A program made the translations under genes and the position numbers. Under the pieces are notes generated by a model that saw only the letters and a list, made by a program, of their open reading frames with translations, had not been told where the DNA came from and ran no database searches. A stretch of 40,798 nucleotides of DNA, taken from positions 1-40,798 of the forward strand of contig JAMPEW010000028.1 of NCBI GenBank assembly GCA_023664775.1, read 5' to 3'. This stretch comes from Clostridium sp. (lineage in GTDB: Bacteria > Bacillota > Clostridia > Lachnospirales > Lachnospiraceae). Of the stretch, positions 5,015 to 40,798 are shown piece by piece. Within the stretch, counting starts at the first letter, position 1, and each line of letters begins with the position of its first letter.

Positions 5015-5181
5015 TTTCATACCTCATAGCTTAGTTTTAAAATCTTGCTATAGGATAGCATATTTTTGTTAATTTTTCCATAATAATATCTTGAAAATAG
5101 CATATAATTATTATATAATTAACAAAAGGCAATATCAATTGCGAAAATGGATGTTGTCAGGTTGATTTATTGATACATATA

Positions 5182-5365
5182 TATCTGGAATGCTCGATAA
5201 TTCCTGTTTATTTTGAACCTACATTTACTTTAAACGGGATTCCTATAGCGTAGTAATATGTCAGGCCTCCGATTTGCAGTGGAAGACAAAAAAACTATGT
5301 GCGGTTGCCCACCTAGCTTTGCTAGGAGTCAAAAGGCAGGAACCGGCATTCTGGATATATATTTT
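5182..5365 (+). ncRNA. ssrS: 6S RNA (RNA polymerase-binding regulatory RNA)
   Basis: The roughly 175-nt region folds as a long interrupted rod typical of 6S RNA. 5184-5193 pairs with 5346-5355 including two wobble pairs, and TTCCTG 5201-5206 pairs with CAGGAA 5337-5342. A large central bubble contains the TTTGAACCTACATTTACTT stretch. An apical hairpin is CCTAGC 5312-5317 with GCTAGG 5321-5326, followed by the AGTCAAAA segment seen in Firmicutes 6S RNAs. A T-rich run (5361-5368) follows the closing stem and could terminate it. 6S RNA mimics an open promoter and sequesters sigma-A holoenzyme. Assignment rests on recalled family pattern and on the pairing; a covariance search was not possible. 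Confidence 0.8.
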
Positions 5366-22547: not shown

Positions 22548-22797
22548 GTGAATATTTAAAGGCTGTGATGGTGCAACAAGGACTTATTCGCTTCCTACAG
22601 AGATGAGGGGCCGCTGGCTGAGAGCCTTTCTAAAGATAAGGATAAGTCTCATTTTCACACCGGAGCTGCATGCCTGAACTTACAGTAGGGCATGACGTGT
22701 TATGTACGTTACACATTTTTTAAGAGCAGCCATTTATGGCTGAAAACGGGTGGTACCGCGGATTATTTTCGTCCCTTTGTTAGGGGACGTTTTTTAT
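22548..22797 (+). promoter_or_regulatory. T-box leader specific for tRNA-Phe
   Basis: The leader has T-box stem I. A basal stem pairs GGTG 22570-22573 with CACC 22658-22661. An internal specifier loop is followed by the stem GACTTA 22581-22586 with TAAGTC 22643-22648. The loop contains the Phe codon TTC at 22654-22656, followed by A as expected. The T-box TGGTACCGCG is at 22751-22760, and its TGGT fits an ACCA tRNA end. The terminator stem CGTCCC with GGGACG (22770-22790) is followed by six Ts. Uncharged tRNA-Phe would stabilise the antiterminator and allow pheST transcription. Confidence 0.95.
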
Positions 22798-30344: not shown

Positions 30345-30440
30345 TGGAAATTTAACCGGTAATGTGGTAAAATGTGCACGGCACATTTTACTTTGCGAAA
30401 ATACATCGCAAATAGCGCATCGTCAATCTTTGATTGACGA
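30345..30440 (+). repeat. Promoter-bearing three-hairpin repeat, copy 1
   Basis: A promoter-like TGGAAA (30345-30350), 17-base spacer and TAAAAT (30368-30373) lead into three consecutive hairpins. The first is TAAAATGTGC with GCACATTTTA (30368-30390). The second is TTTGCGA with TCGCAAA (30392-30412). The third is TCGTCAATC with GATTGACGA (30420-30440). The first two recur at 40747-40794 with changed but still paired arms. The whole 30222-30639 gap contains only this element, a terminator and a short ORF. Confidence 0.7.
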
Positions 30441-30477
30441 TATGGTAGAATGTGCACGAAAGCAATGAGCAGTGCCA

Positions 30478-30541: not shown

Positions 30542-30637
30542 ATGCCCGTGAATGAGGAAAACCAAGGGCTTTCCGAATGTGCGCTGCGACAAAATGAGCG
30601 AACGGTGACATGGCAGATTACGAAAGGAGACTACTGA
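30542..30637 (+). CDS. Possible 31-codon leader ORF upstream of aroA
   Basis: ATG 30542 opens a frame that ends with TGA at 30635-30637, two bases before the preferred aroA start. The peptide begins MPVNEENQGLSECALRQNER. No good RBS is visible. It could couple translation to aroA or be chance. Confidence 0.25.
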   Translation: MPVNEENQGLSECALRQNERTVTWQITKGDY

Positions 30638-30639
30638 AA

Positions 30640-31920
30640 TTGAAATTCAAAAGAGCAGGAGGCTTGTCCGGTGAAATTACTGTGCCGGGAGACAAGTCCA
30701 TTTCACATAGAAGTATCATGCTGGGCGCACTTGCAAAGGGAAATACGGAGGTTACGGGCTTTTTGCAGGGGGCGGACTGCCTTTCTACAATAGACTGTTT
30801 CAGGAAAATGGGCGTTGAAATTACAAATAATAATGATGGGACTGTTGTAATAACAGGCAGGGGGCTGAGAGGTCTTTTGCCGCCTGACGATACTCTTGAC
30901 GTTGGAAACAGCGGGACGACAACGAGGCTTATGTCGGGAATTTTGGCGGCACAAAGCTTTTCGTCAAGAGTAAACGGCGATGCCTCCATACAGAAAAGAC
31001 CGATGAAGCGCATTATAACCCCGCTTTTACAGATGGGGGCAGACATAAAAAGTGAAAATGGAAATGACTGTGCACCGCTTGTTATAAATGGCAGACAGCT
31101 CAAAGGAATATGCTATGCCTCGCCTGTTGCGTCTGCGCAGGTTAAATCGGCAATCTTATTTGCGGGACTTTATGCAGAGGGCGAAACAACGGTCACAGAG
31201 CCAGCCTTAAGCAGAAACCATACAGAGCTTATGCTTGAGGAATTTGGTGTTGATATAAAAACGGAGGGGAAATCCGTAACTGTTGCACCTGCAAGGGAGC
31301 TTTTTGCAAGAAAGATAACGGTGCCCGGCGATATATCCTCCGCCGCGTATTTTATGGTGGCGGCAGCCATTACGCCTAATTCCTGCGTTACCGTAAAAAA
31401 TGTTGGTATCAATCCGACAAGAGATGGAATGATACGGGTTATGAAAATGATGGGAGCAGATATCGCAGTTGAAAAAACATCGGCAGATATAGGCGAGCCG
31501 ACAGCAGATATTACGGTTAAAACCTCGGAGCTTAAGGGCTGCGTCATTGGGGGAGATATCATTCCGACATTGATTGATGAGATACCTGCAATTGCCATTC
31601 TTGCCTGCTTTGCGGAAGGAAAAACAATCATAAAGGATGCAGGGGAGCTTAAGGTTAAGGAATCAAACCGCATAGACGTCATGGTGTCAAACCTTTCGGC
31701 AATGGGAGCCGACATAGAGGCAACAGAGGATGGAATGATAATCAAGGGTGGAAAAGCACTCCATGGCGCTAACGTGGACAGCAGGCTTGACCACCGTATC
31801 GCCATGAGCTTTGCCGTAGCGGCATTAAATGCGGAGGGAGAAACAGGCATACTGGGAAGTGAATGTGTAGACATATCATATCCGGGATTTTATGCTGATT
31901 TAAAAAAGCTGATAAAATAA
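30640..31920 (+). CDS. aroA: 3-phosphoshikimate 1-carboxyvinyltransferase (EPSP synthase)
   Basis: AroA makes 5-enolpyruvylshikimate-3-phosphate in the shikimate pathway. The protein of about 426 aa shows PGDKSISHRSIMLGALA, LDVGNSGTTTRLMSG, ASAQVKSAILFAGL, SRNHTELMLEEFG, and the C-terminal KESNRIDVM and DHRIAMSFAVAAL. The start is uncertain. TTG 30640 gives the usual family N-terminus MKFKRAGGLSGEI with AGGAG 10 bases upstream. ATG 30610 would add 10 residues but has a poor RBS. A structured leader with a terminator precedes the gene, and a strong terminator follows. Confidence 0.95.
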   Translation: MKFKRAGGLSGEITVPGDKSISHRSIMLGALAKGNTEVTGFLQGADCLSTIDCFRKMGVEITNNNDGTVVITGRGLRGLLPPDDTLDVGNSGTTTRLMSGILAAQSFSSRVNGDASIQKRPMKRIITPLLQMGADIKSENGNDCAPLVINGRQLKGICYASPVASAQVKSAILFAGLYAEGETTVTEPALSRNHTELMLEEFGVDIKTEGKSVTVAPARELFARKITVPGDISSAAYFMVAAAITPNSCVTVKNVGINPTRDGMIRVMKMMGADIAVEKTSADIGEPTADITVKTSELKGCVIGGDIIPTLIDEIPAIAILACFAEGKTIIKDAGELKVKESNRIDVMVSNLSAMGADIEATEDGMIIKGGKALHGANVDSRLDHRIAMSFAVAALNAEGETGILGSECVDISYPGFYADLKKLIK

Positions 31921-32119: not shown

Positions 32120-32737
32120 CTACAAGGTCTGCTTGTACATATTTTTATCAAACTCTGCATTAAAGTAATAAAAATTTTTGCTGTCCATCTTTTCCTTGGT
32201 CATTTCAAGTGCTTCGCCGAACCTTTGAAAATGGACAATCTCCCTTGCACGCAGGAATTTAAGCGGTGCCCTTACGTCAGGGTCATCAATCACACGAAGC
32301 AGATTTTCATATACGGTACGTGCTTTTTGCTCTGCGGCAAGATCCTCAAAAAGGTCTGCCATTGCATCACCCTTTGACTGAAATTCAAGTGCCGTAAAAG
32401 GAACACCAGCCGCCGCCTGCGGCCAAAGCCCTGTGGTATGGTCAATATAGTAAGCGTCAAAGCCAGCAGTTTTTGCCTGTTCAGGCGTAAGATTTTTTGT
32501 AAGCTGATAAACCATTGCACAGATAATTTCCATATGGTTTATTTCCTCGGTGCCTATATCCGTAAGCAGACCGCCTACCTTCTTGACAGGCATGGAATAA
32601 CGCTGTGCCAGATAACGCATGGATGCTGACAATTCGCCGTCAGGTCCACCGTATTGGCTTATAATAAGCTGTGCCGTTTTCGGGCATGTGTTTTTTATTT
32701 TAACAGGAAATTGTAATCTTTTTTCGTAGCTCCACAT
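32120..32737 (-). CDS. cotJC: Spore coat protein CotJC (manganese catalase family)
   Basis: The 205-aa protein is a CotJC/Mn-catalase homologue of the spore coat. Candidate dimanganese ligands are all present: E35 (GPDGELSASM), E65 and H68 (TEEINHME), E136 (LAAEQKAR) and H169 (REIVHFQRFG). MWSYEKRLQFPVKIK and the GGPDGE motif are typical. Its start codon overlaps by one base the stop of the upstream cotJA-cotJB gene, so the two are translationally coupled. Expression in the mother cell is expected for the family. I could not define a sigma-E site with confidence. Confidence 0.95.
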   Translation of the reverse strand: MWSYEKRLQFPVKIKNTCPKTAQLIISQYGGPDGELSASMRYLAQRYSMPVKKVGGLLTDIGTEEINHMEIICAMVYQLTKNLTPEQAKTAGFDAYYIDHTTGLWPQAAAGVPFTALEFQSKGDAMADLFEDLAAEQKARTVYENLLRVIDDPDVRAPLKFLRAREIVHFQRFGEALEMTKEKMDSKNFYYFNAEFDKNMYKQTL

Positions 32738-33201: not shown

Positions 33202-33305
33202 AACGGTTCTCCTTTCGTTTTCATTTTAAACAATTAAAAATTGCCGTACATTTATTTTGCGTGGGAAGAAAAAAATATATGTGAGAAGTTATTGGCAAAA
33301 AAATG

Positions 33306-33324
33306 GGGCTGTCGCAGACAGCCT
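33306..33324. terminator. Bidirectional terminator beside the first 99-aa gene
   Basis: GGGCTGTC pairs with GACAGCCT around GCA. On the minus strand it is followed by ATTTTTTTGCC, and on the plus strand by CTCATTTTGTTTTT. It can terminate the minus-strand gene at 33454-33753. Confidence 0.7.
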
Positions 33325-33344
33325 CTCATTTTGTTTTTATTATA

Positions 33345-33430
33345 GATAAGAAAGTTCTCCGAATTTCTTATCAGGCAGGATTAAAAATCCTGCTAGGATG
33401 CGAACTACAGCATCAAAGACGCTTTGTTCT
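33345..33430. repeat. Multi-hairpin intergenic repeat, copy B
   Basis: Hairpins in order: GATAAGAAA with TTTCTTATC (33345-33372), GCAGGATT with AATCCTGC (33375-33393), GATGC with GCATC (33397-33414), and CAAAG with CTTTG (33414-33426). It is the counterpart of 32005-32113. It is absent from the second copy of the adjacent gene at 40.3 kb. Confidence 0.6.
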
Positions 33431-33433
33431 GGA

Positions 33434-33787
33434 TTTCAATTTAAGCTTTATAGCTACGCTTCGCCAGCTTCCGCCTCAGAAGCAGTCTCGCCCTCCTGCT
33501 CTAATGTAACATAATCCCTTTCGCCAGGCTCGGAGTCCTCAAAGAAGATTTCATCCTCGTCAACGATATCCTCCTCGTTTGTCTTTGGGAATTTTTCCTT
33601 GATTGCAGTTGTGACCTTCTTGAGCTTTTCATCCACGTTGTGTTCCTTATAAACCTTAGATTCCTTAATCTGATCCTTAAATGCGTAGCAGATTCCGCCT
33701 ACTGCTGCGGCAGCTACAGTAAATTTTACAAGTCCCTTTACTAATTTTCCCATGTCTAAATCTCCTTTTTCATATATATTTTACGCA
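33434..33787. repeat. 354-bp direct repeat, left copy
   Basis: This segment is identical by eye to 40316-40669, offset 6882 bases. It includes the whole 99-aa gene plus about 20 bases downstream and 34 bases upstream of it. Sequence similarity stops abruptly at both edges. Confidence 0.95.
33454..33753 (-). CDS. Hypothetical 99-aa protein with N-terminal hydrophobic segment and acidic tail (copy 1)
   Basis: The protein starts MGKLVKGLVKFTVAAAAVGG. It has one hydrophobic segment at residues 8-25, a Lys-rich middle (KESKVYKEHNVDEKLKKV), and a strongly acidic C-terminal half (residues 58-99). It looks like a small single-pass membrane protein with a cytoplasmic or periplasmic acidic domain. I do not recognise the family. 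AAAGGAG lies 8 bases before the ATG on the minus strand. A second gene encoding the identical protein is at 40336-40635. The two copies bracket a secretion/ABC-type cassette. A role in that cassette is possible but unproven. Confidence 0.8.
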   Translation of the reverse strand: MGKLVKGLVKFTVAAAAVGGICYAFKDQIKESKVYKEHNVDEKLKKVTTAIKEKFPKTNEEDIVDEDEIFFEDSEPGERDYVTLEQEGETASEAEAGEA

Positions 33788-33788
33788 G

Positions 33789-33881
33789 ATGGAACAGGAA
33801 TATAAATATTACAGTGGCTTAGCAGATCGTCTCAAGGAACAAAGCAATCTGCGAGGAGCATTTCTACCATTTCAACAATGA
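33789..33881 (+). pseudogene. Possible truncated gene fragment at the repeat edge
   Basis: A 30-codon frame begins one base after the end of the 354-bp repeat (MEQEYKYYSGLADRLKEQSN and ten more residues) and ends with TGA 33879-33881. There is no RBS. It overlaps the next micro-ORF by ATGA. It looks like the inside of a larger protein cut by the repeat junction. Confidence 0.3.
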
Positions 33882-33991
33882 GAATGGCAAGCTTTTTAAT
33901 TGCACTTATTCTTGTGTTAATTAGTGTTAGTGACAAACACGATATTGCAGCTGTTTTAGGCACTGTCATATTTTTTATGCCTTGTGCATAA
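33878..33991 (+). pseudogene. Micro-ORF or gene remnant with a hydrophobic segment
   Basis: A 37-aa frame starts MRMASFLIALILVLISVSDK and continues to a second hydrophobic stretch before TAA 33989-33991. It overlaps the preceding fragment in an ATGA arrangement. Read together, the two could be one frameshifted protein with a soluble part followed by two membrane segments. Identity is unknown. Confidence 0.3.
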
Positions 33992-34086
33992 AAAGTTGTA
34001 CTTCGTAATTTACATATAAAAGGTAAAATTTCTTAATTGATATGATTGATGTAATAGGGGAAATATATGGTAAAAATGTTCCGAAT

Positions 34087-34151
34087 TGGTACAATGCACT
34101 TAACACTGGTACAATGAGCTTAGTGACTATGTGGAAAATGTCTGGTATAAT
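34087..34151 (+). promoter_or_regulatory. Tandem operator-like repeats and extended -10 promoter
   Basis: TGGTACAATGCACTTA (34087-34102) and TGGTACAATGAGCTTA (34107-34122) are direct repeats 20 bases apart, two turns of helix. The -10 TATAAT (34146-34151) has a TGG extension but no good -35. This is the arrangement of a promoter activated by a dimeric response regulator. It lies about 380 bases upstream of the secreted-protein gene. Confidence 0.6.
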
Positions 34152-34295
34152 AAATTTGTAGGTTAATCTGACAGATGGCTGAATGTGAAGCTGTCGTGTA
34201 TGAAACGAGGATTGTTTGGTAGAATTAAATTGGAAAGGACGGTGAAATCATTACAAGGCTTCCCGGCATTTTGAAAGCAAATTTCATATGAGGAC

Positions 34296-34350
34296 CATAT
34301 ACTCGTGTATTTAGGTTTTTGCTTCAATCAAGCAAAATGACGAGTATATG
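34296..34350 (+). promoter_or_regulatory. Long hairpin in the leader of the secreted-protein gene
   Basis: CATATACTCGT (34296-34306) pairs with ACGAGTATATG (34340-34350). Inside, TTTTGCTT (34317-34324) pairs with AAGCAAAA (34330-34337). Only TATTTT follows, so it is a weak terminator or a regulatory leader structure. A second possible -10 (TGCTACAAT, 34419-34427) lies downstream. The remaining gap to 34531 is AT-rich with nothing else identified. Confidence 0.5.
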
Positions 34351-34531
34351 TATTTTGAATCCATGACAGATCCTTACAGTGAGAGAAGATTTATTTATAT
34401 ATTAAAAATAATAAAAAATGCTACAATATGTCGTTTCAGTTAAAGTAAATTGAAAAATAAATAGATTAAAATGAAACTGTAAAAATGCAACGGTTGACAA
34501 TTGACAAAGAAAATTTATGGAGGGCTTATTT

Positions 34532-34942
34532 ATGATGAAAAAACAAAAAACTAAGGCGATAGCAATGATTTTTTCCATGTTGTTATTATTTATTTGTATG
34601 TATAACATAAAAACAAATGCAATGGATGTGACAAGTGCAACATATGAAGGTGTTACATATACAGGGAGCATTACATATTATGGTGCAGGAGGACCGTCCG
34701 GATATTATGAATTGGTGCTAAAGGCAAGTGCAACGCCTAACGAATTATATGAATACGTAAAGCTAAAATCAGGTTCAGGCTCTGATAAGGATCCAATTTC
34801 AGGAATCGCACGAAACTCGAAGTCTCTGTCATTACAAACCCCTGTTTTTGTAAGTAATGCTTATACTACGAAGGGATATTTTTTTTATTCGGTTGTATCA
34901 AGCTCGGGACAAAAATATACATTCAGTAGCACTAGACAATAA
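34532..34942 (+). CDS. Small secreted protein of unknown family
   Basis: The protein (136 aa from ATG 34532) has a Lys-rich N-region and a hydrophobic core IAMIFSMLLLFICMY, with a likely signal peptidase site near TNA-MD. The mature part of about 105 residues is rich in Ser, Tyr, Gly and Thr and lacks cysteine. It has a beta-strand-like pattern (YEGVTYTGSITYYG, YYELVLKAS, GYFFYSVVSSSGQKYTF). GGAGG is 8 bases before ATG 34532. It heads a block with a lipoprotein and an ABC transporter, separated by a hairpin, as in some bacteriocin or peptide-signal loci. I do not recognise the family. A bacteriocin, adhesin or sensed ligand are all possible. Confidence 0.8.
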   Translation: MMKKQKTKAIAMIFSMLLLFICMYNIKTNAMDVTSATYEGVTYTGSITYYGAGGPSGYYELVLKASATPNELYEYVKLKSGSGSDKDPISGIARNSKSLSLQTPVFVSNAYTTKGYFFYSVVSSSGQKYTFSSTRQ

Positions 34943-34950
34943 ATAATATG

Positions 34951-34993
34951 TATGTCAGAGATATAAATATGTGTTTATTGTATCTCTGACATA
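34951..34993 (+). terminator. Hairpin between the secreted protein and lipoprotein genes
   Basis: TATGTCAGAGATA (34951-34963) pairs perfectly with TATCTCTGACATA (34981-34993). Only TTTC follows, so it is probably a partial terminator or 3' stabiliser that lets the first gene be expressed more than the rest. Confidence 0.65.
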
Positions 34994-35017
34994 TTTCAAC
35001 ATGAAAGGACAACATTT

Positions 35018-37021
35018 ATGAAAAAGTATTTGCTTACGGTATTGGGTCTTGTACTTTTTATTTCTCTTGCTGCATGTGACAGAAAATCTGATAAAAAAAA
35101 TTTTCTTGGTGGATACGGAGATATAACACAGGGGGCATATGCAGGAGCGTATACATCGGGATTTTTTGAGGATGACACCTATATTTATTTTGGAGGTTTT
35201 AAAATCAATAAAATATCAGGAAAGGTCATAGGAATTTGCGAGACTCCGGGATGCAGCCATAAGAGCTCAGATTGCGTAGAATTTATGTACAAGGAAAGAC
35301 TTTTCCCGGGAAATGACATGATTTTTTATACGGAAGGCACAAGCCTGTATGAATTGGATGATACGGGAAAAAAAAGTCTGATAGCTGTGTTTGATACAGG
35401 AAGCAATGGAATATCCTTGGATAAGTCGGTCAAAATTGAAGGCGTCATGCCTGTTTCCGACAACATGATATATGTTTTATGTCAGGATGGAAGCTGTATA
35501 TATAATTTAGATACAGGTGAAAAGGTATATGCGATATCCTCTATGGTATGTGGGGATGATAAAAATGTATACTATTACGACAGCGCAAGCGGAATTTTCA
35601 AGGTTGACACGGCTACAATGGAAAGTAATGTAATCACTGATACAAAATTAATGTATCCATGCTGCTGTAGCAATGGCCTTTTGTATTGCAATACGGATGG
35701 CGGCTCTGTGTACAGCATTGACAGGGATAACAATATTGAGGTTTTTCTGACGGAGAGAAATAAAAAATGTATTATGTTAGGAGCGGCAGGGGAAAAGCTT
35801 TATTATATGCATACGGATTTGGACGCTGTTAAAAAACAGTATTCCTTTTGTGATTTGTATTCCTGTAATACGGATGGCGAGGACAGGGAAAAGCTGAATG
35901 ATGCCCCGCTGAACCCGAATATGCGGGCATTTGTAAGGGATAAGGCGTTATATTTGCTTGATATAGGACAGTTTGAGGAGGGAAATTCTGTTTACAGATA
36001 TGATATGGATAATAAAACATGGAATACATATATGCTTGCTCAAAACGGGAATCATGTGGAAGCTGAACAAGAGAACGAAGCAATCGGGGAGGCAAACCAT
36101 GAAGAACTCCCGATTGTGGAAAAAAGTGCTTCCATGGCAGCAGGCTTTTATTCCTATAGCACAGACGAGCTTACGGGAAATACAACGTTAATTATTCAGA
36201 ATAATGTACCTTTTAAGGCTGATGGCAGCGAACAGAAAACAATATATCAATATTATGTGGAAGTGGAGGGGTATCCCGAGGAGGGAGAAATATACATTTT
36301 TGCTTTGTGCGGCGGCATTTTTCAGCCCCTATCCGTAAACGGAAATGAGGAAAGGCTTATCAATTCGATTCCATATAAAAATAAAGAGAATATGAGCGCT
36401 GAGATTGCGTTTACAATCGGTAATTCCTCCTATGCCAATGAGGTAATAATTGGAACGTATTTCTCTGATTCAATGATAGAAAATGATTTTGAAGCGTTTA
36501 GTTGGCATAATGAAATGGTAAGCTCAGATAAATTTATATATAAGACGGTAGACGGATACCGGCTGGAGGAAAAGAAAAAAACGGAAATGGACGGAACTCT
36601 AATTTTCAGGGATGTTTATACATTTGAAACAGAGGAAAAAAGACAAAATATTGAGGATGTCATTAGCGGTTGGAGGTCGGATGGCTTTGCTGTGATTTCG
36701 GACCGTATTCCTATAGGGGTGCAGCGGGAACGCTGGAATATCATATTTGACGAAAATACACCGTGTTATGGTTTGTTTTGCGGTAATAGCGGAAAATACG
36801 ATATATATCTGCTTGTTGACGATAAGCCTGTTTTGTTTTATGGAGAAGAATACTGCCTGACATGTAATATTATTTCGGAAAAGGATACCGTTGTATTTGA
36901 GATGGATATAAATGATATTGTGGATGATAATGAGAAGCATATAGCCAAATTTTTGGTATACGATTATCAAACGGGAATGTTAAATTTTCGCCAGACGCAG
37001 ATAATTCAAAAAAAGGATTGA
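35018..37021 (+). CDS. Large lipoprotein, beta-propeller-like N-terminal region
   Basis: The 667-aa protein has a lipoprotein signal with lipobox LAAC, lipidated at C20. Residues about 45-350 show repeated short strand motifs (DDTYIYFGGF, DNMIYVLCQDG, DKNVYYYDSASG, GEKLYYMHTD) like beta-propeller lipoproteins of Lachnospiraceae. A motif C74-x4-C79-x-H81-x4-C86 could bind metal or form disulfides. The C-terminal 300 residues are another domain of unknown fold. GAAAGG lies 9 bases before the ATG. The location is the outer face of the membrane. It probably works with the adjacent ABC transporter as a surface sensor or binding protein. Confidence 0.82.
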   Translation: MKKYLLTVLGLVLFISLAACDRKSDKKNFLGGYGDITQGAYAGAYTSGFFEDDTYIYFGGFKINKISGKVIGICETPGCSHKSSDCVEFMYKERLFPGNDMIFYTEGTSLYELDDTGKKSLIAVFDTGSNGISLDKSVKIEGVMPVSDNMIYVLCQDGSCIYNLDTGEKVYAISSMVCGDDKNVYYYDSASGIFKVDTATMESNVITDTKLMYPCCCSNGLLYCNTDGGSVYSIDRDNNIEVFLTERNKKCIMLGAAGEKLYYMHTDLDAVKKQYSFCDLYSCNTDGEDREKLNDAPLNPNMRAFVRDKALYLLDIGQFEEGNSVYRYDMDNKTWNTYMLAQNGNHVEAEQENEAIGEANHEELPIVEKSASMAAGFYSYSTDELTGNTTLIIQNNVPFKADGSEQKTIYQYYVEVEGYPEEGEIYIFALCGGIFQPLSVNGNEERLINSIPYKNKENMSAEIAFTIGNSSYANEVIIGTYFSDSMIENDFEAFSWHNEMVSSDKFIYKTVDGYRLEEKKKTEMDGTLIFRDVYTFETEEKRQNIEDVISGWRSDGFAVISDRIPIGVQRERWNIIFDENTPCYGLFCGNSGKYDIYLLVDDKPVLFYGEEYCLTCNIISEKDTVVFEMDINDIVDDNEKHIAKFLVYDYQTGMLNFRQTQIIQKKD

Positions 37022-37026
37022 TGTGA

Positions 37027-38370
37027 TTGTTTTTTTTAGAGCTTAAAAAGTTTTTTAAAATAAAGGGAATTGGTGTATCCATTATTTTAATTATAATGTG
37101 CATGCTTCTGAATTCAATAAATAATACAGGGTTATTAAATAAGTACAAAAAGGGGATAGAAGCCGGTGATGGTCGTGATATGACAAAATATGAAAATAAA
37201 TTGTTGTACATGCATGCCGGAATTCAGTTTTCCGAAGAAAAATATAAGGAGATGCTTTTGGTATCCGACAGCCTTTATGAGGGAACGGATAGCGAAGGTG
37301 AAGAGACAGGACGATTCGGACCTGCAAAAAAATATGACAAATGGCTTTATGAGACGCTTCTTTCCACTATGAGATACCTAGGGGATTTTAAGGAAAGCTT
37401 AAGCGATGTGATTTATAATGCGCAGCAGGTAAAGGAAAACAATAAATACCTTGGTAAATACCGTGACCCGTATAAGGACAAGGAAGCAGATGCCATAATT
37501 TCCGCCTATACGCATATACGGGATAATATAGAGCTTAAATTGGCAAATACTCGGGGAGCTTATATGTACTGCTGGAGTGAGTCGGAGGGAATAAATCAAT
37601 TTAATTATCAGCTTTTGATTTTATTTTTATGCTGTATCATTTCGATTTATTTTACAAATGAATATGAGGGTGGAATACATCAGCTTACTTATACGGCATA
37701 TAAGGGCAGATTGTTTTTTTTCGTTTTGAAAAATAAAATTGTTTTTACGGCGACACTGTTTCTTACGCTGCTAAGCTGCGTGATTGACGCTGTCATAATG
37801 GGATGGAGGTTTGGCGGATTTCTTGGGGCACTGAGTCAACCTGTTCAGTTGGTATATTTTTTTCCGAATGGAGCCATAGCGCAGTTTTGTCCCTTTGACA
37901 TTACCTTTGGACAGTATGTTCTCTTGGCATTCTTTATGAAATTCACTGCGCTTTATTTTGTGGCAAACATAAGTGCATGGATGGCTGTATGGCTTAGAAA
38001 TGCTTTGGCGTCAATCGTTGCGTCTGTGCTTGCGAATGTTGGTTTGCTGCAATTTACAATATATACGGCGCAAATGGATTTATATCCGTACGAACAAAAA
38101 TCCATTTTTTTAGATAAAATATTCATATGGTTAAAAACATATTCGCCAATATCATTATTATGGTTTCAGGATTATATAAGGTCATATGATGCAATCAATT
38201 TATTTGGCACGCCTGTAAAAAGACTTTGCTTTGCGCTTACATTTGCGTGGCTGTTAATTGCTGCTGTTTTAATTATAAATTCATGCCTGTATTGCAGAAG
38301 GGGGTGCATAAGTGAAGCTGGAATTATTAAATATATCAAAAAAATATGGAAAAACAGAGGCCTTGCGTGA
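37027..38370 (+). CDS. ABC-2-type transporter permease (large)
   Basis: The 447-aa protein has TM1 at about 13-32 (IGVSIILIIMCMLLNSI), a large extracytoplasmic loop (33-195) rich in Lys, Glu and Tyr, and about five further segments between 195 and 430. This is the usual layout of ABC-2-type exporter subunits. The start is TTG 37027 and the RBS is poor (AAAGGATTG). It begins 5 bases after the lipoprotein stop. The end overlaps the ATPase gene by 59 bases. The function is inferred from context and topology, not from a recognised subfamily. Confidence 0.78.
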   Translation: MFFLELKKFFKIKGIGVSIILIIMCMLLNSINNTGLLNKYKKGIEAGDGRDMTKYENKLLYMHAGIQFSEEKYKEMLLVSDSLYEGTDSEGEETGRFGPAKKYDKWLYETLLSTMRYLGDFKESLSDVIYNAQQVKENNKYLGKYRDPYKDKEADAIISAYTHIRDNIELKLANTRGAYMYCWSESEGINQFNYQLLILFLCCIISIYFTNEYEGGIHQLTYTAYKGRLFFFVLKNKIVFTATLFLTLLSCVIDAVIMGWRFGGFLGALSQPVQLVYFFPNGAIAQFCPFDITFGQYVLLAFFMKFTALYFVANISAWMAVWLRNALASIVASVLANVGLLQFTIYTAQMDLYPYEQKSIFLDKIFIWLKTYSPISLLWFQDYIRSYDAINLFGTPVKRLCFALTFAWLLIAAVLIINSCLYCRRGCISEAGIIKYIKKIWKNRGLA

Positions 38371-39175
38371 TTATAGCGCAACTTTTGAGAATGGTATTTA
38401 CGGACTGCTTGGTCCCAACGGTGCAGGAAAAACAACGCTTATGAACATAGTTACAACGCTTATGAAACCGAGTAGTGGTGAGACTTTGTTTGATGGTAAA
38501 AATATATATAAAATGGGGAAAGAGTACAGAAAAATATTAGGATATCTTCCTCAGTATCCGGGACTGTATCCCTTTTATACGGGCAGAGAGCTTCTTTCTT
38601 ATTTTGCAAAATTGAAGGCTGTAGATGCTTCAAGGGAGCGAATAAATGAACTTCTAGAGCTTGTTCACCTACTTGACGTCGCAGATAAGAAGGTTGGGGA
38701 ATATTCGGGAGGAATGAAAAAACGTATGGCAATTGCTGTGGCACTATTGAATAAACCTAAGCTGATTGTTATGGATGAACCGACAGCAGGGCTTGATCCA
38801 AAGGAACGTATACGGTTTAGAAGCATTGTGAGTAAAATAAAATATGAAACCATAATAATAATATCCACACATATTGTTTCTGATGTGGAGCATATTGCGG
38901 ATAACATAGTGTTAATGGATAAGGGCAGATTGCTTGAGCAGGATAAATACGACAGGCTCATTGAAAAAAAGAAGAATTGCATATGGTCCTTGGATGTAAA
39001 AAATGAGGATGTACTTGGATATACGGAAAAATATAAGGTTGTCAATACGATAAATTTAGACAGAGAACACGTCAGGGTCAGAATCATAGGAGATGAAAGA
39101 CCAAAGGAAGAAGCACAGCCTGTTTATCCTACGTTGGAGGATGTTTACATGTATTATTTTGGGAGTGATGATTAA
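38312..39175 (+). CDS. ABC transporter ATP-binding protein
   Basis: The 287-aa protein is a typical ABC ATPase: Walker A GPNGAGKTT, Q-loop LPQYP, signature YSGGMKKRMAIA, Walker B LIVMDEPTAGLDP, and switch histidine in STHIVSD. The C-terminal 70 residues form an extra domain. The start is GTG 38312 with GGGGG 8 bases upstream. The 59-base overlap with the upstream permease suggests translation coupling. It belongs to the exporter-type group used for bacteriocin immunity, antibiotic resistance and peptide efflux. It presumably energises both flanking permeases. Confidence 0.95.
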   Translation: MKLELLNISKKYGKTEALRDYSATFENGIYGLLGPNGAGKTTLMNIVTTLMKPSSGETLFDGKNIYKMGKEYRKILGYLPQYPGLYPFYTGRELLSYFAKLKAVDASRERINELLELVHLLDVADKKVGEYSGGMKKRMAIAVALLNKPKLIVMDEPTAGLDPKERIRFRSIVSKIKYETIIIISTHIVSDVEHIADNIVLMDKGRLLEQDKYDRLIEKKKNCIWSLDVKNEDVLGYTEKYKVVNTINLDREHVRVRIIGDERPKEEAQPVYPTLEDVYMYYFGSDD

Positions 39176-40174
39176 GTGTTTAAATTTGAATTAAAAAAAT
39201 ATATGGACGTGCTTTTTATTTTAGTCTGCCTGTTTGGGATTATATATTTTTTCATATTGACATTTAACCATTCTAAAATTGATGCTAGTGTTCGGGGTTT
39301 TTATAATGAGTACATTAAAATTTTGGCTGGACCATTAAACGAGGAAAAGGAAACATATATATTGGAGGAATATCAGCGTGTAAATCTTGTTATTGAACAG
39401 AGTAACTCTAATCCCGAAGCATGGAGTGATTTTGATAAGCTACAATATGCATTTCAGCATGAAATAGCATGGGGAATGGTATATGACAGATATTTGAACA
39501 TGGTTGCAATACAAAATAACAAGGACTGCATTTTTTATAATGACCTTGCCATGCAGGATTTTTTAAAAAACAGCAGGGTGAATTATCTTGAGATATTTCT
39601 CTTGGCTGTCATTGCGATTTATTCCGTGACAGTTGATTTTCATGAAAAAAGGCATGCGGTTATAAAAGCCTCATATAGGGGAGGTACCGAATATATAATT
39701 ACGAAGCAAAATGTGCTTATGTGTATTGCCGTATTTGTTTCTGTCATGTTTTTGGCAATAGAATATCTGTATGTCATCTTTTCGGGGAATTTAAAGGTTC
39801 TGTCCCTTCCCATAAGAAGCATGAATGAATTTTCAAAATTGAGGTGGAGTATATCCGTGGGAGAGTATATTTTACTTAGGGGTGCACTTCATGTCTTATG
39901 GAACGTGGTAACAATGTTTGTGATATGTCTGATTGGAATGCTTGTAAAACGACTTCAAACAGGAGTGTTTTTAAGTTTGTTTACAATATTAGTTCCACTT
40001 ACGTTAAAGGAAATGATAAGCTCAAAGCTTTTTGCATGGATATACAGTGTAAATTTAGATAAGGATTTTATGCTGTGCAGTCGTAATAGTATTACAGCCC
40101 TAAATGCGGTAATATTAATTCCCGTACTGTATGCAGTTAATACTTGTGTATGGCAAAGACTTTCGTGTAATTAA
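39176..40174 (+). CDS. ABC-2-type transporter permease (small, second subunit)
   Basis: The 332-aa protein has TM1 at about 11-30 (VLFILVCLFGIIYFFILTF), an extracytoplasmic segment of about 105 residues, and five later segments between 138 and 330. It starts with GTG directly after the ATPase stop, with GGGAG upstream. It resembles the first permease only in layout, so the transporter is probably a heterodimer of two unlike permeases with one ATPase. A degenerate MITE-like end follows its stop codon. Confidence 0.8.
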   Translation: MFKFELKKYMDVLFILVCLFGIIYFFILTFNHSKIDASVRGFYNEYIKILAGPLNEEKETYILEEYQRVNLVIEQSNSNPEAWSDFDKLQYAFQHEIAWGMVYDRYLNMVAIQNNKDCIFYNDLAMQDFLKNSRVNYLEIFLLAVIAIYSVTVDFHEKRHAVIKASYRGGTEYIITKQNVLMCIAVFVSVMFLAIEYLYVIFSGNLKVLSLPIRSMNEFSKLRWSISVGEYILLRGALHVLWNVVTMFVICLIGMLVKRLQTGVFLSLFTILVPLTLKEMISSKLFAWIYSVNLDKDFMLCSRNSITALNAVILIPVLYAVNTCVWQRLSCN

Positions 40175-40240
40175 TCAGGCAATTGTAAAGCGATGTATTT
40201 TTAAAACACCTTGCTTATGATGTTGTATAATACGATTAAA
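40175..40240. repeat. Degenerate MITE-like left end
   Basis: TCAGGCAATTGTAAAGCG and the following ATGTATTTTT and TATGATGTTGTA pieces match the left arm of the element at 27488. No right arm or core follows, so it is a fragment or old copy. It starts one base after the permease stop. Confidence 0.5.
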
Positions 40241-40248
40241 AAGTGGAA

Positions 40249-40296
40249 GCTGTGTCAGTAAGGATTTATTTCCTTTTAAATCCTTGTCGACACAGC
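40249..40296. terminator. Terminator hairpin between the permease and the second 99-aa gene
   Basis: GCTGTGTC (40249-40256) pairs with GACACAGC (40289-40296), extended by AAGGATTT with AAATCCTT. The minus strand is followed by CTTTTTAA, so it can end the 99-aa gene transcript, and the plus strand by a weak T-rich stretch. Confidence 0.75.
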
Positions 40297-40315
40297 CTCT
40301 GTATTATTCTAATAT

Positions 40316-40669
40316 TTTCAATTTAAGCTTTATAGCTACGCTTCGCCAGCTTCCGCCTCAGAAGCAGTCTCGCCCTCCTGCTCTAATGTAACATAATCCC
40401 TTTCGCCAGGCTCGGAGTCCTCAAAGAAGATTTCATCCTCGTCAACGATATCCTCCTCGTTTGTCTTTGGGAATTTTTCCTTGATTGCAGTTGTGACCTT
40501 CTTGAGCTTTTCATCCACGTTGTGTTCCTTATAAACCTTAGATTCCTTAATCTGATCCTTAAATGCGTAGCAGATTCCGCCTACTGCTGCGGCAGCTACA
40601 GTAAATTTTACAAGTCCCTTTACTAATTTTCCCATGTCTAAATCTCCTTTTTCATATATATTTTACGCA
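40316..40669. repeat. 354-bp direct repeat, right copy
   Basis: The segment is identical by eye to 33434-33787 in the same orientation. The duplicated unit covers the coding region and its near flanks but not the terminator or the promoter -35 region. Confidence 0.95.
40336..40635 (-). CDS. Hypothetical 99-aa protein with N-terminal hydrophobic segment and acidic tail (copy 2)
   Basis: This gene encodes a protein identical to that of 33454-33753, with identical nucleotide sequence, RBS and start. It too is on the minus strand. The upstream DNA differs beyond 40669, so the two copies may have different promoters: a TAAAAT at the repeat edge would be -10 for both, with different -35 regions. 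The terminator downstream also differs. Exact identity implies a recent duplication or gene conversion. Confidence 0.8.
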   Translation of the reverse strand: MGKLVKGLVKFTVAAAAVGGICYAFKDQIKESKVYKEHNVDEKLKKVTTAIKEKFPKTNEEDIVDEDEIFFEDSEPGERDYVTLEQEGETASEAEAGEA

Positions 40670-40723
40670 AGTAAACTAGGTATTATTCTAATACATTAAA
40701 ATATAAAAATCAAGACGCATACG

Positions 40724-40798
40724 TTGTTGGAACCGATTTTTTGTGGTATAATATGCGTAAACGCATATTATACTTTGCGAAAGAACATCGCAAATAGC
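40724..40798 (+). repeat. Promoter-bearing hairpin repeat, copy 2 (cut by the window end)
   Basis: TTGTTG (40724-40729), 17-base spacer, and TATAAT (40747-40752) with a TGG extension form a good promoter. The -10 begins a perfect 12-bp hairpin (40747-40758 with 40761-40772). The second hairpin TTTGCGA with TCGCAAA (40774-40794) is shared with copy 1. The window ends in the segment after it, so a gene to the right is likely. Confidence 0.75.

Follow-up and report, generated by a model that had tools for sequence, protein, structure and literature searches.

Concerted change, probably by gene conversion, in two direct repeats that bracket an ABC transporter cassette beside a cotJ operon in Clostridium sp.

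The tufA/tufB genes and the rRNA operons are cases of concerted evolution by gene conversion, and composite elements flanked by direct repeats, like transposons bounded by insertion sequences (IS), hold a block of genes between direct repeats. A survey (PMC6053082) deals with such concerted change among duplicated genes of bacteria. Here we describe a locus with features of both kinds in a Clostridium sp.; the window, that is, the whole stretch of DNA analysed, is the complete 40,798-bp contig C20 of the source genome (G000). Two identical direct repeats, each carrying the same small gene (here g), bracket a five-gene ATP-binding cassette (ABC) transporter cassette. From a comparison with a second species of the genus that has the same layout (G014), we consider it highly probable that an old, shared duplication of g has since been homogenised by gene conversion within each species, presumably through homologous recombination between the repeats. 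Two further cassette-bearing species of the genus (G034 and G036) and a genome from another genus (G483) also enter the comparison.

33434-33787, minus strand: repeat copy 1, with g (open reading frame 33454-33753); derived copy, without the promoter-like site present at copy 2
40316-40669, minus strand: repeat copy 2, with g (open reading frame 40336-40635); ancestral position, found also in both single-copy species

Exact extension gave two repeats of 354 bp, 100% identical and with abrupt ends, spaced 6,882 bp from start to start, and each encloses one 99-aa open reading frame on the minus strand; a small secreted protein, a lipoprotein and a two-permease ABC transporter occupy five open reading frames between them. 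In its repeats and gene content the locus is as an earlier note on this DNA, made from the sequence alone, had described it. The g protein has a hydrophobic N-terminal segment (the best 17-residue stretch starts at residue 8) and an acidic tail, with 18 aspartate or glutamate residues among the last 45; searches against Pfam and NCBIfam assigned it to no family at an E-value of 0.1.

The two copies of G014 are near-identical as well, with 261 bp exact, and aligning the four copies of the two species separated within-species from between-species change. Ten events, in 23 columns, pair the copies by species: 8 substitutions and two insertions/deletions, one of 1 bp and one of 15 bp. Inside the repeat no shared change pairs both left copies against both right copies, and the only 2 informative columns that pair by copy lie outside, just left of the repeat. 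When G034 and G036 serve as outgroups, the derived changes common to both copies are a 15-bp loss and a single substitution in G000, and three substitutions and a 1-bp loss in G014. In a six-row tree the two G014 copies were joined at 99/96 support, the two G000 copies being identical. Paralogues within a species are thus closer than orthologues between species, by the ten events as by the tree. Had the copies drifted at the approximately 5% of their surroundings, they should have gathered some 18 differences over 354 bp, and the Poisson chance of none is 2e-8.

The flanks of copy 2 gave the presumably converted segment its bounds. Between G000 and G014, copy 2 differs by 11 events, all in 40334-40483 and 10 of them common to copy 1, and there are zero differences in 39869-40333 and in 40484-40797, the latter reaching 128 bp beyond the repeat; a changed gene segment therefore sits between unchanged flanks. 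Because the copies are alike within species, differ in concert between species and, at copy 2, have identical sequence on both sides, gene conversion best accounts for them. Either copy would act as the repair template for the other, independently in each species, and the most recent transfer would have run from copy 1 to copy 2. The duplication itself appears to predate the split of the two species, as both carry the insert that holds copy 1 (described below); a transfer of that insert between the species is also possible.

Copy 2 is the ancestral g. Of 37 genomes from the genus, 35 have the gene, the two without it being 88% and 80% complete; among 24 genomes from other families of the order it was found in 0. 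Only G000 and G014, among the 37, have two separate copies; in seven other genomes with two matches these were neighbouring pieces of one place. In all six cassette-free single-copy genomes inspected (G010, G021, G028, G020, G030 and G005) aroA adjoins g, at 0.3 kb or less in five and at 1.7 kb in G020, with neither cotJ nor the cassette in between; a MutS-like gene follows closely after g in three of the six, and in the other three it is at a greater distance or at another place. This aroA-g adjacency, together with a promoter-like site and flank at copy 2 that match those of the single-copy relatives, identifies copy 2 as the original.

30610-31920, plus strand: aroA (EPSP synthase), the neighbour of g in cassette-free relatives
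40685-40713, minus strand: sigma-70-like site upstream of the copy 2 g, TTGATT-17-TAGAAT; not part of the repeat, and lacking at copy 1
40742-40798, no strand assigned: part of an approximately 90-bp dispersed repeat at the contig end, with 11 matches in the genome

Between copy 2 and the end of contig C20 there are 129 bp, in which the dispersed repeat begins. Contig C44 opens with the same repeat, followed by the intact start of the MutS-like gene, and is therefore likely the continuation of C20 beyond copy 2. The dispersed repeat is partly palindromic and promoter-like, recurs at 30363-30456, and stands in tandem at the start of C44. A 13-bp direct repeat also surrounds copy 2 (40302-40314 and 40681-40693; 0.01 expected by chance); it was considered as a target-site duplication and rejected, because at the left place in G036 the similar sequence is not doubled.

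In all four species of the genus that carry it, the cassette has a cotJ operon on one side and g on the other, and G034 and G036 have a single g, to its right. The cotJ-cassette intergenic region aligns between these two single-copy species over approximately 300 bp; in G000 and G014 it is interrupted by an insert, which contains copy 1 and has the same truncation of the MutS-like piece in both species.

33301-34403, no strand assigned: insert of approximately 1.1 kb in the cotJ-cassette intergenic region, replacing approximately 86 bp of G036 in the alignment; holds copy 1
33788-33973, plus strand: frame-broken 5' end (186 bp) of the MutS-like gene found beyond copy 2, whose intact start is in C44
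34058-34205, no strand assigned: dispersed promoter-like sequence of approximately 130 bp, also present in G000 (contig C3), G014 (contig C14) and G028 (contig C22)
34286-34345, no strand assigned: 60 bp that G014 lacks, with an inverted repeat recognised by eye; the block of high similarity has its left edge here

The insert holds, in addition, a further gene fragment resembling a place in G021 (L060). Because two of the four carriers hold only the right g, the comparison indicates that the cassette came first and the left copy of g later. The order of events would then be as follows: g, a genus-wide gene beside aroA, would be the starting state; in one clade a second cotJ operon and the five-gene cassette now separate aroA from g; and in the ancestry of two species an extra g with a MutS-like piece would have landed between cotJ and the cassette. 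The earlier note had offered an insertion next to a duplicated target gene as one possibility; the cassette does adjoin a conserved gene, but the order is reversed, the duplicate having arrived afterwards within the insert. G014 has, besides, a 147-aa open reading frame between cotJ and copy 1 (L039:17597-18040), with a PIN-domain match below threshold (22.1 versus 23.6 bits); the cotJ-copy 1 intergenic region thus collects insertions.

The cassette itself has probably been exchanged recently, along with copy 2, between the species of G000 and G014. Over 34346-40333 the two differ by 40 substitutions in 5,988 bp (0.67%; 99.3% identity), against 92.5-96.2% identity in 500-bp bins to the left of the cassette and 94.2% (91.8-98.2% per bin) on the C44 side. 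This similarity does not come from constraint, since the cassette is as diverged as aroA from G036 (85.3% and 84.0% identity, respectively) and more so from G034 (79.6% and 84.4%). The differences are clustered within the cassette, 12 in 36579-36667 and 16 in 37075-37713, which makes more than one exchange event likely. In the simplest order, one species would have received the cassette and copy 2 from the other, after which its own copy 1 would have overwritten copy 2.

Several observations weigh against this account. The two G014 copies are not fully alike, with three differences left in the body and two at the right edge, and a nine-row tree that included more distant outgroup rows left the species pairs unresolved. 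Conversion is deduced from two species only, and the exact identity in G000 could have been sharpened by the handling of repeats during assembly. As to the exchange, the clade's cotJ genes share 92.4% identity with those of G036, as compared with 84% for aroA, so patchy exchange is a general feature here and may not be peculiar to the cassette. A separate re-duplication in each species would, finally, give a similar picture. Two independent recent duplications of this kind would explain the within-species identity directly, yet they would have had to produce the same MutS-like truncation, the same approximately 370 bp after it and the same intergenic place in both species; moreover, between the two left units the MutS-like pieces share only 89.2% identity, a much greater divergence than that between the g copies of one species, and we regard such a history as very improbable. 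A further rival is a Campbell-type insertion, in which a circle with the cassette and its own g would have entered by recombination at the resident g and left g on both sides; its product would be g-cassette-g in direct orientation, as seen. It predicts two copies from the start, however. The cotJ-cassette intergenic region instead aligns between G036 and G034 over its first 300 bp or so, with no scar of g seen in that alignment, and it is in the two-copy layout that copy 1 interrupts it; copy 1 is joined, furthermore, to a truncated MutS-like piece rather than to a full flank. We hold this insertion to be highly improbable.

The earlier note had offered, as its other possibility, a movable or amplifiable module that loops out through the 354-bp repeats. 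Two identical direct repeats at a spacing of 6,882 bp would suit such an event well, the copies do appear to recombine, and the cassette is found in only 4 of the 37 genus genomes, so that the block is not fixed in all relatives, which the note had named as a refutation. Recombination between the repeats also stood, in the form of the proposed conversion; the repeat-borne module did not. The left repeat is missing in two of the four carriers, the G483 cassette has no g in the 20 kb examined, no looped-out product occurs in any of the four carrier genomes, and the lipoprotein matched nothing in 72,556 plasmid records or in viral contigs. No transposase or recombinase was recognised in Pfam or NCBIfam among g and the five cassette proteins, smaller open reading frames lying outside the search. 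Mainly because single-copy carriers exist, the mobile-element reading is rejected, and as an explanation of the layout we consider it very improbable; looping out as a rare event is possible. It could also be that one g was placed twice during assembly, which the note had named as a way for its reading to fail: copy 2 lies close to the contig end, and short reads do not easily resolve an exact repeat of 354 bp. Such an artefact is unlikely because the separate assembly of G014, another species, shows the same layout, with both copies 6,840 bp apart inside a 164-kb contig and slightly different from each other; this idea is close to refuted and retains scarcely any probability. Gene conversion between the copies of an old duplication accordingly remains the reading that we prefer.

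The five genes of the cassette are listed below; the names permease, lipoprotein and secreted are based on reading of the sequence and on position beside the ATPase.

34517-34942, plus strand: small protein with a signal-like N-terminal segment, 141 aa (likely start 34532)
35018-37021, plus strand: lipoprotein, 667 aa, lipobox LAAC (by eye), no Pfam family
37027-38370, plus strand: permease 1, 447 aa, no Pfam family
38312-39175, plus strand: ABC transporter ATPase, 287 aa (PF00005, E-value 2.2e-31)
39176-40174, plus strand: permease 2, 332 aa, no Pfam family

The ATPase is the only one of the six proteins (g and the five) with a Pfam match at an E-value of 0.1 or better, and it fell under every curated NCBIfam cut-off shown; against TIGR03740 (lantibiotic protection) it scored 175.3 bits, with a cut-off of 309.75 bits. 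With the PADLOC defence signatures the ATPase gave general ATPase matches only, g gave one weak match (E-value 0.00089) and the other four proteins gave none. Among solved structures there was no match to the lipoprotein at an E-value of 1 and only chance-level matches to the small protein (best E-value 0.3), and a literature search found, among the papers listed, none on the cassette. An Rfam scan of the window returned a 6S RNA and a T-box leader, elsewhere in the window (5179-5361 and 22556-22779), and nothing beyond them.

The distribution of the cassette is narrow. The lipoprotein was detected in the four genus genomes already named and in 1 of 392 genomes of the order, the source genome itself; the order, family, class and G483-relative sets are samples of larger groups. 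Permease 1 was found in 6 of 397 genomes of the family, strongly only in the source genome and G483 (550 bits), the other four scoring 22.5-51.3 bits; in 2 of 145 relatives of G483, namely G483 and one weak match; in 2 of 391 genomes of the class, its own and one weak match; and at 3 named loci in a genome-contig database. Because looser relatives in other genomes combine a lipoprotein, one or more permeases and an ATPase of this type (open reading frames by eye), the transporter is probably a member of a broad clostridial class to which a small secreted protein has been added.

The cotJ operon beside the cassette is the second of its genome.

32120-32737, minus strand: CotJC (manganese-catalase family), second cotJC of the genome
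32737-33201, minus strand: fused CotJA-CotJB protein, 154 aa

A cotJC match was present in 30 of the 37 genus genomes; all four cassette carriers have two whole matches and the other genomes with a match have one, apart from two further genomes with two partial pieces. The second cotJC of the clade groups with a lineage of other genera and not with the genus's own. In G483 all five cassette genes, at 36-69% identity, follow directly after its only cotJABC operon, neither g nor aroA being found in the 20 kb examined, and the cotJC of G483 groups with the ordinary cotJC lineage of the genus. The cassette thus has a cotJ operon as its neighbour twice, and the two cases differ in cotJ lineage and in orientation. 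Inheritance of cotJ and cassette as one unit was considered and rejected, the cotJC lineage of the clade being different from that of G483. Around 22 cotJC loci from other genera, approximately 1.5 kb on each side, there was no cassette and only distant ATPase matches (24.8-35%, at 3 loci). By a rough estimate, with one or two cotJ operons among approximately 2,500 genes, the chance of a second cotJ neighbour is well below 1%, so that the two cases, being only two, hint at a link between the cassette and sporulation. The cassette may, tentatively, be an ABC-2-type exporter or immunity pump with a lipoprotein, which would serve, or guard against, the small secreted protein, perhaps around sporulation.

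A bolder and improbable proposal joins these strands: the promoter-poor left copy would serve as a lasting template from which the expressed right copy is restored each time a foreign cassette block with its own g arrives from a related species; the pair would thereby guard the resident gene during exchange of the neighbouring cassette, and the cassette would be a system for secretion or self-protection, linked to sporulation, that has come to lie next to cotJ operons again and again. The mechanism that we propose for the repeats is itself ordinary and already known, and the locus is a clear natural example of it: a well-bounded conversion whose two direct repeats enclose a block that has probably passed from one species to another, the direction of the conversion being arguable from the flanks. 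The locus also cautions against taking exact repeats on either side of a gene block for its ends as a matter of course, and it presents a small gene set, beside the cotJ operons of two lineages, as a candidate for a role around sporulation.

In gene content the cassette is similar to ABC-2 transporters with a lipoprotein, among them the lantibiotic protection systems (TIGR03740, to which its ATPase scores 175 bits), in having an ATPase, permeases and a lipoprotein; unlike them, it has an ATPase below the TIGR03740 cut-off, its permeases and lipoprotein have no Pfam family at an E-value of 0.1, and no lantibiotic synthesis genes were recognised among its five genes. In layout it is similar to composite and IS-bounded elements, as a block between direct repeats, but the repeat here is a duplicated resident gene, the proteins searched have no transposase match, and both repeats do not accompany the block everywhere, G034 and G036 having one copy and G483 none nearby. 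The behaviour of the repeats compares with concerted evolution. The usual cases differ in that g is short, restricted to one genus and without a function assigned by family, in that one copy lacks the promoter-like site, and in that two species only are concerned; as in those cases, the paralogues within a species are closer to each other than are the orthologues between species, despite a shared duplication.

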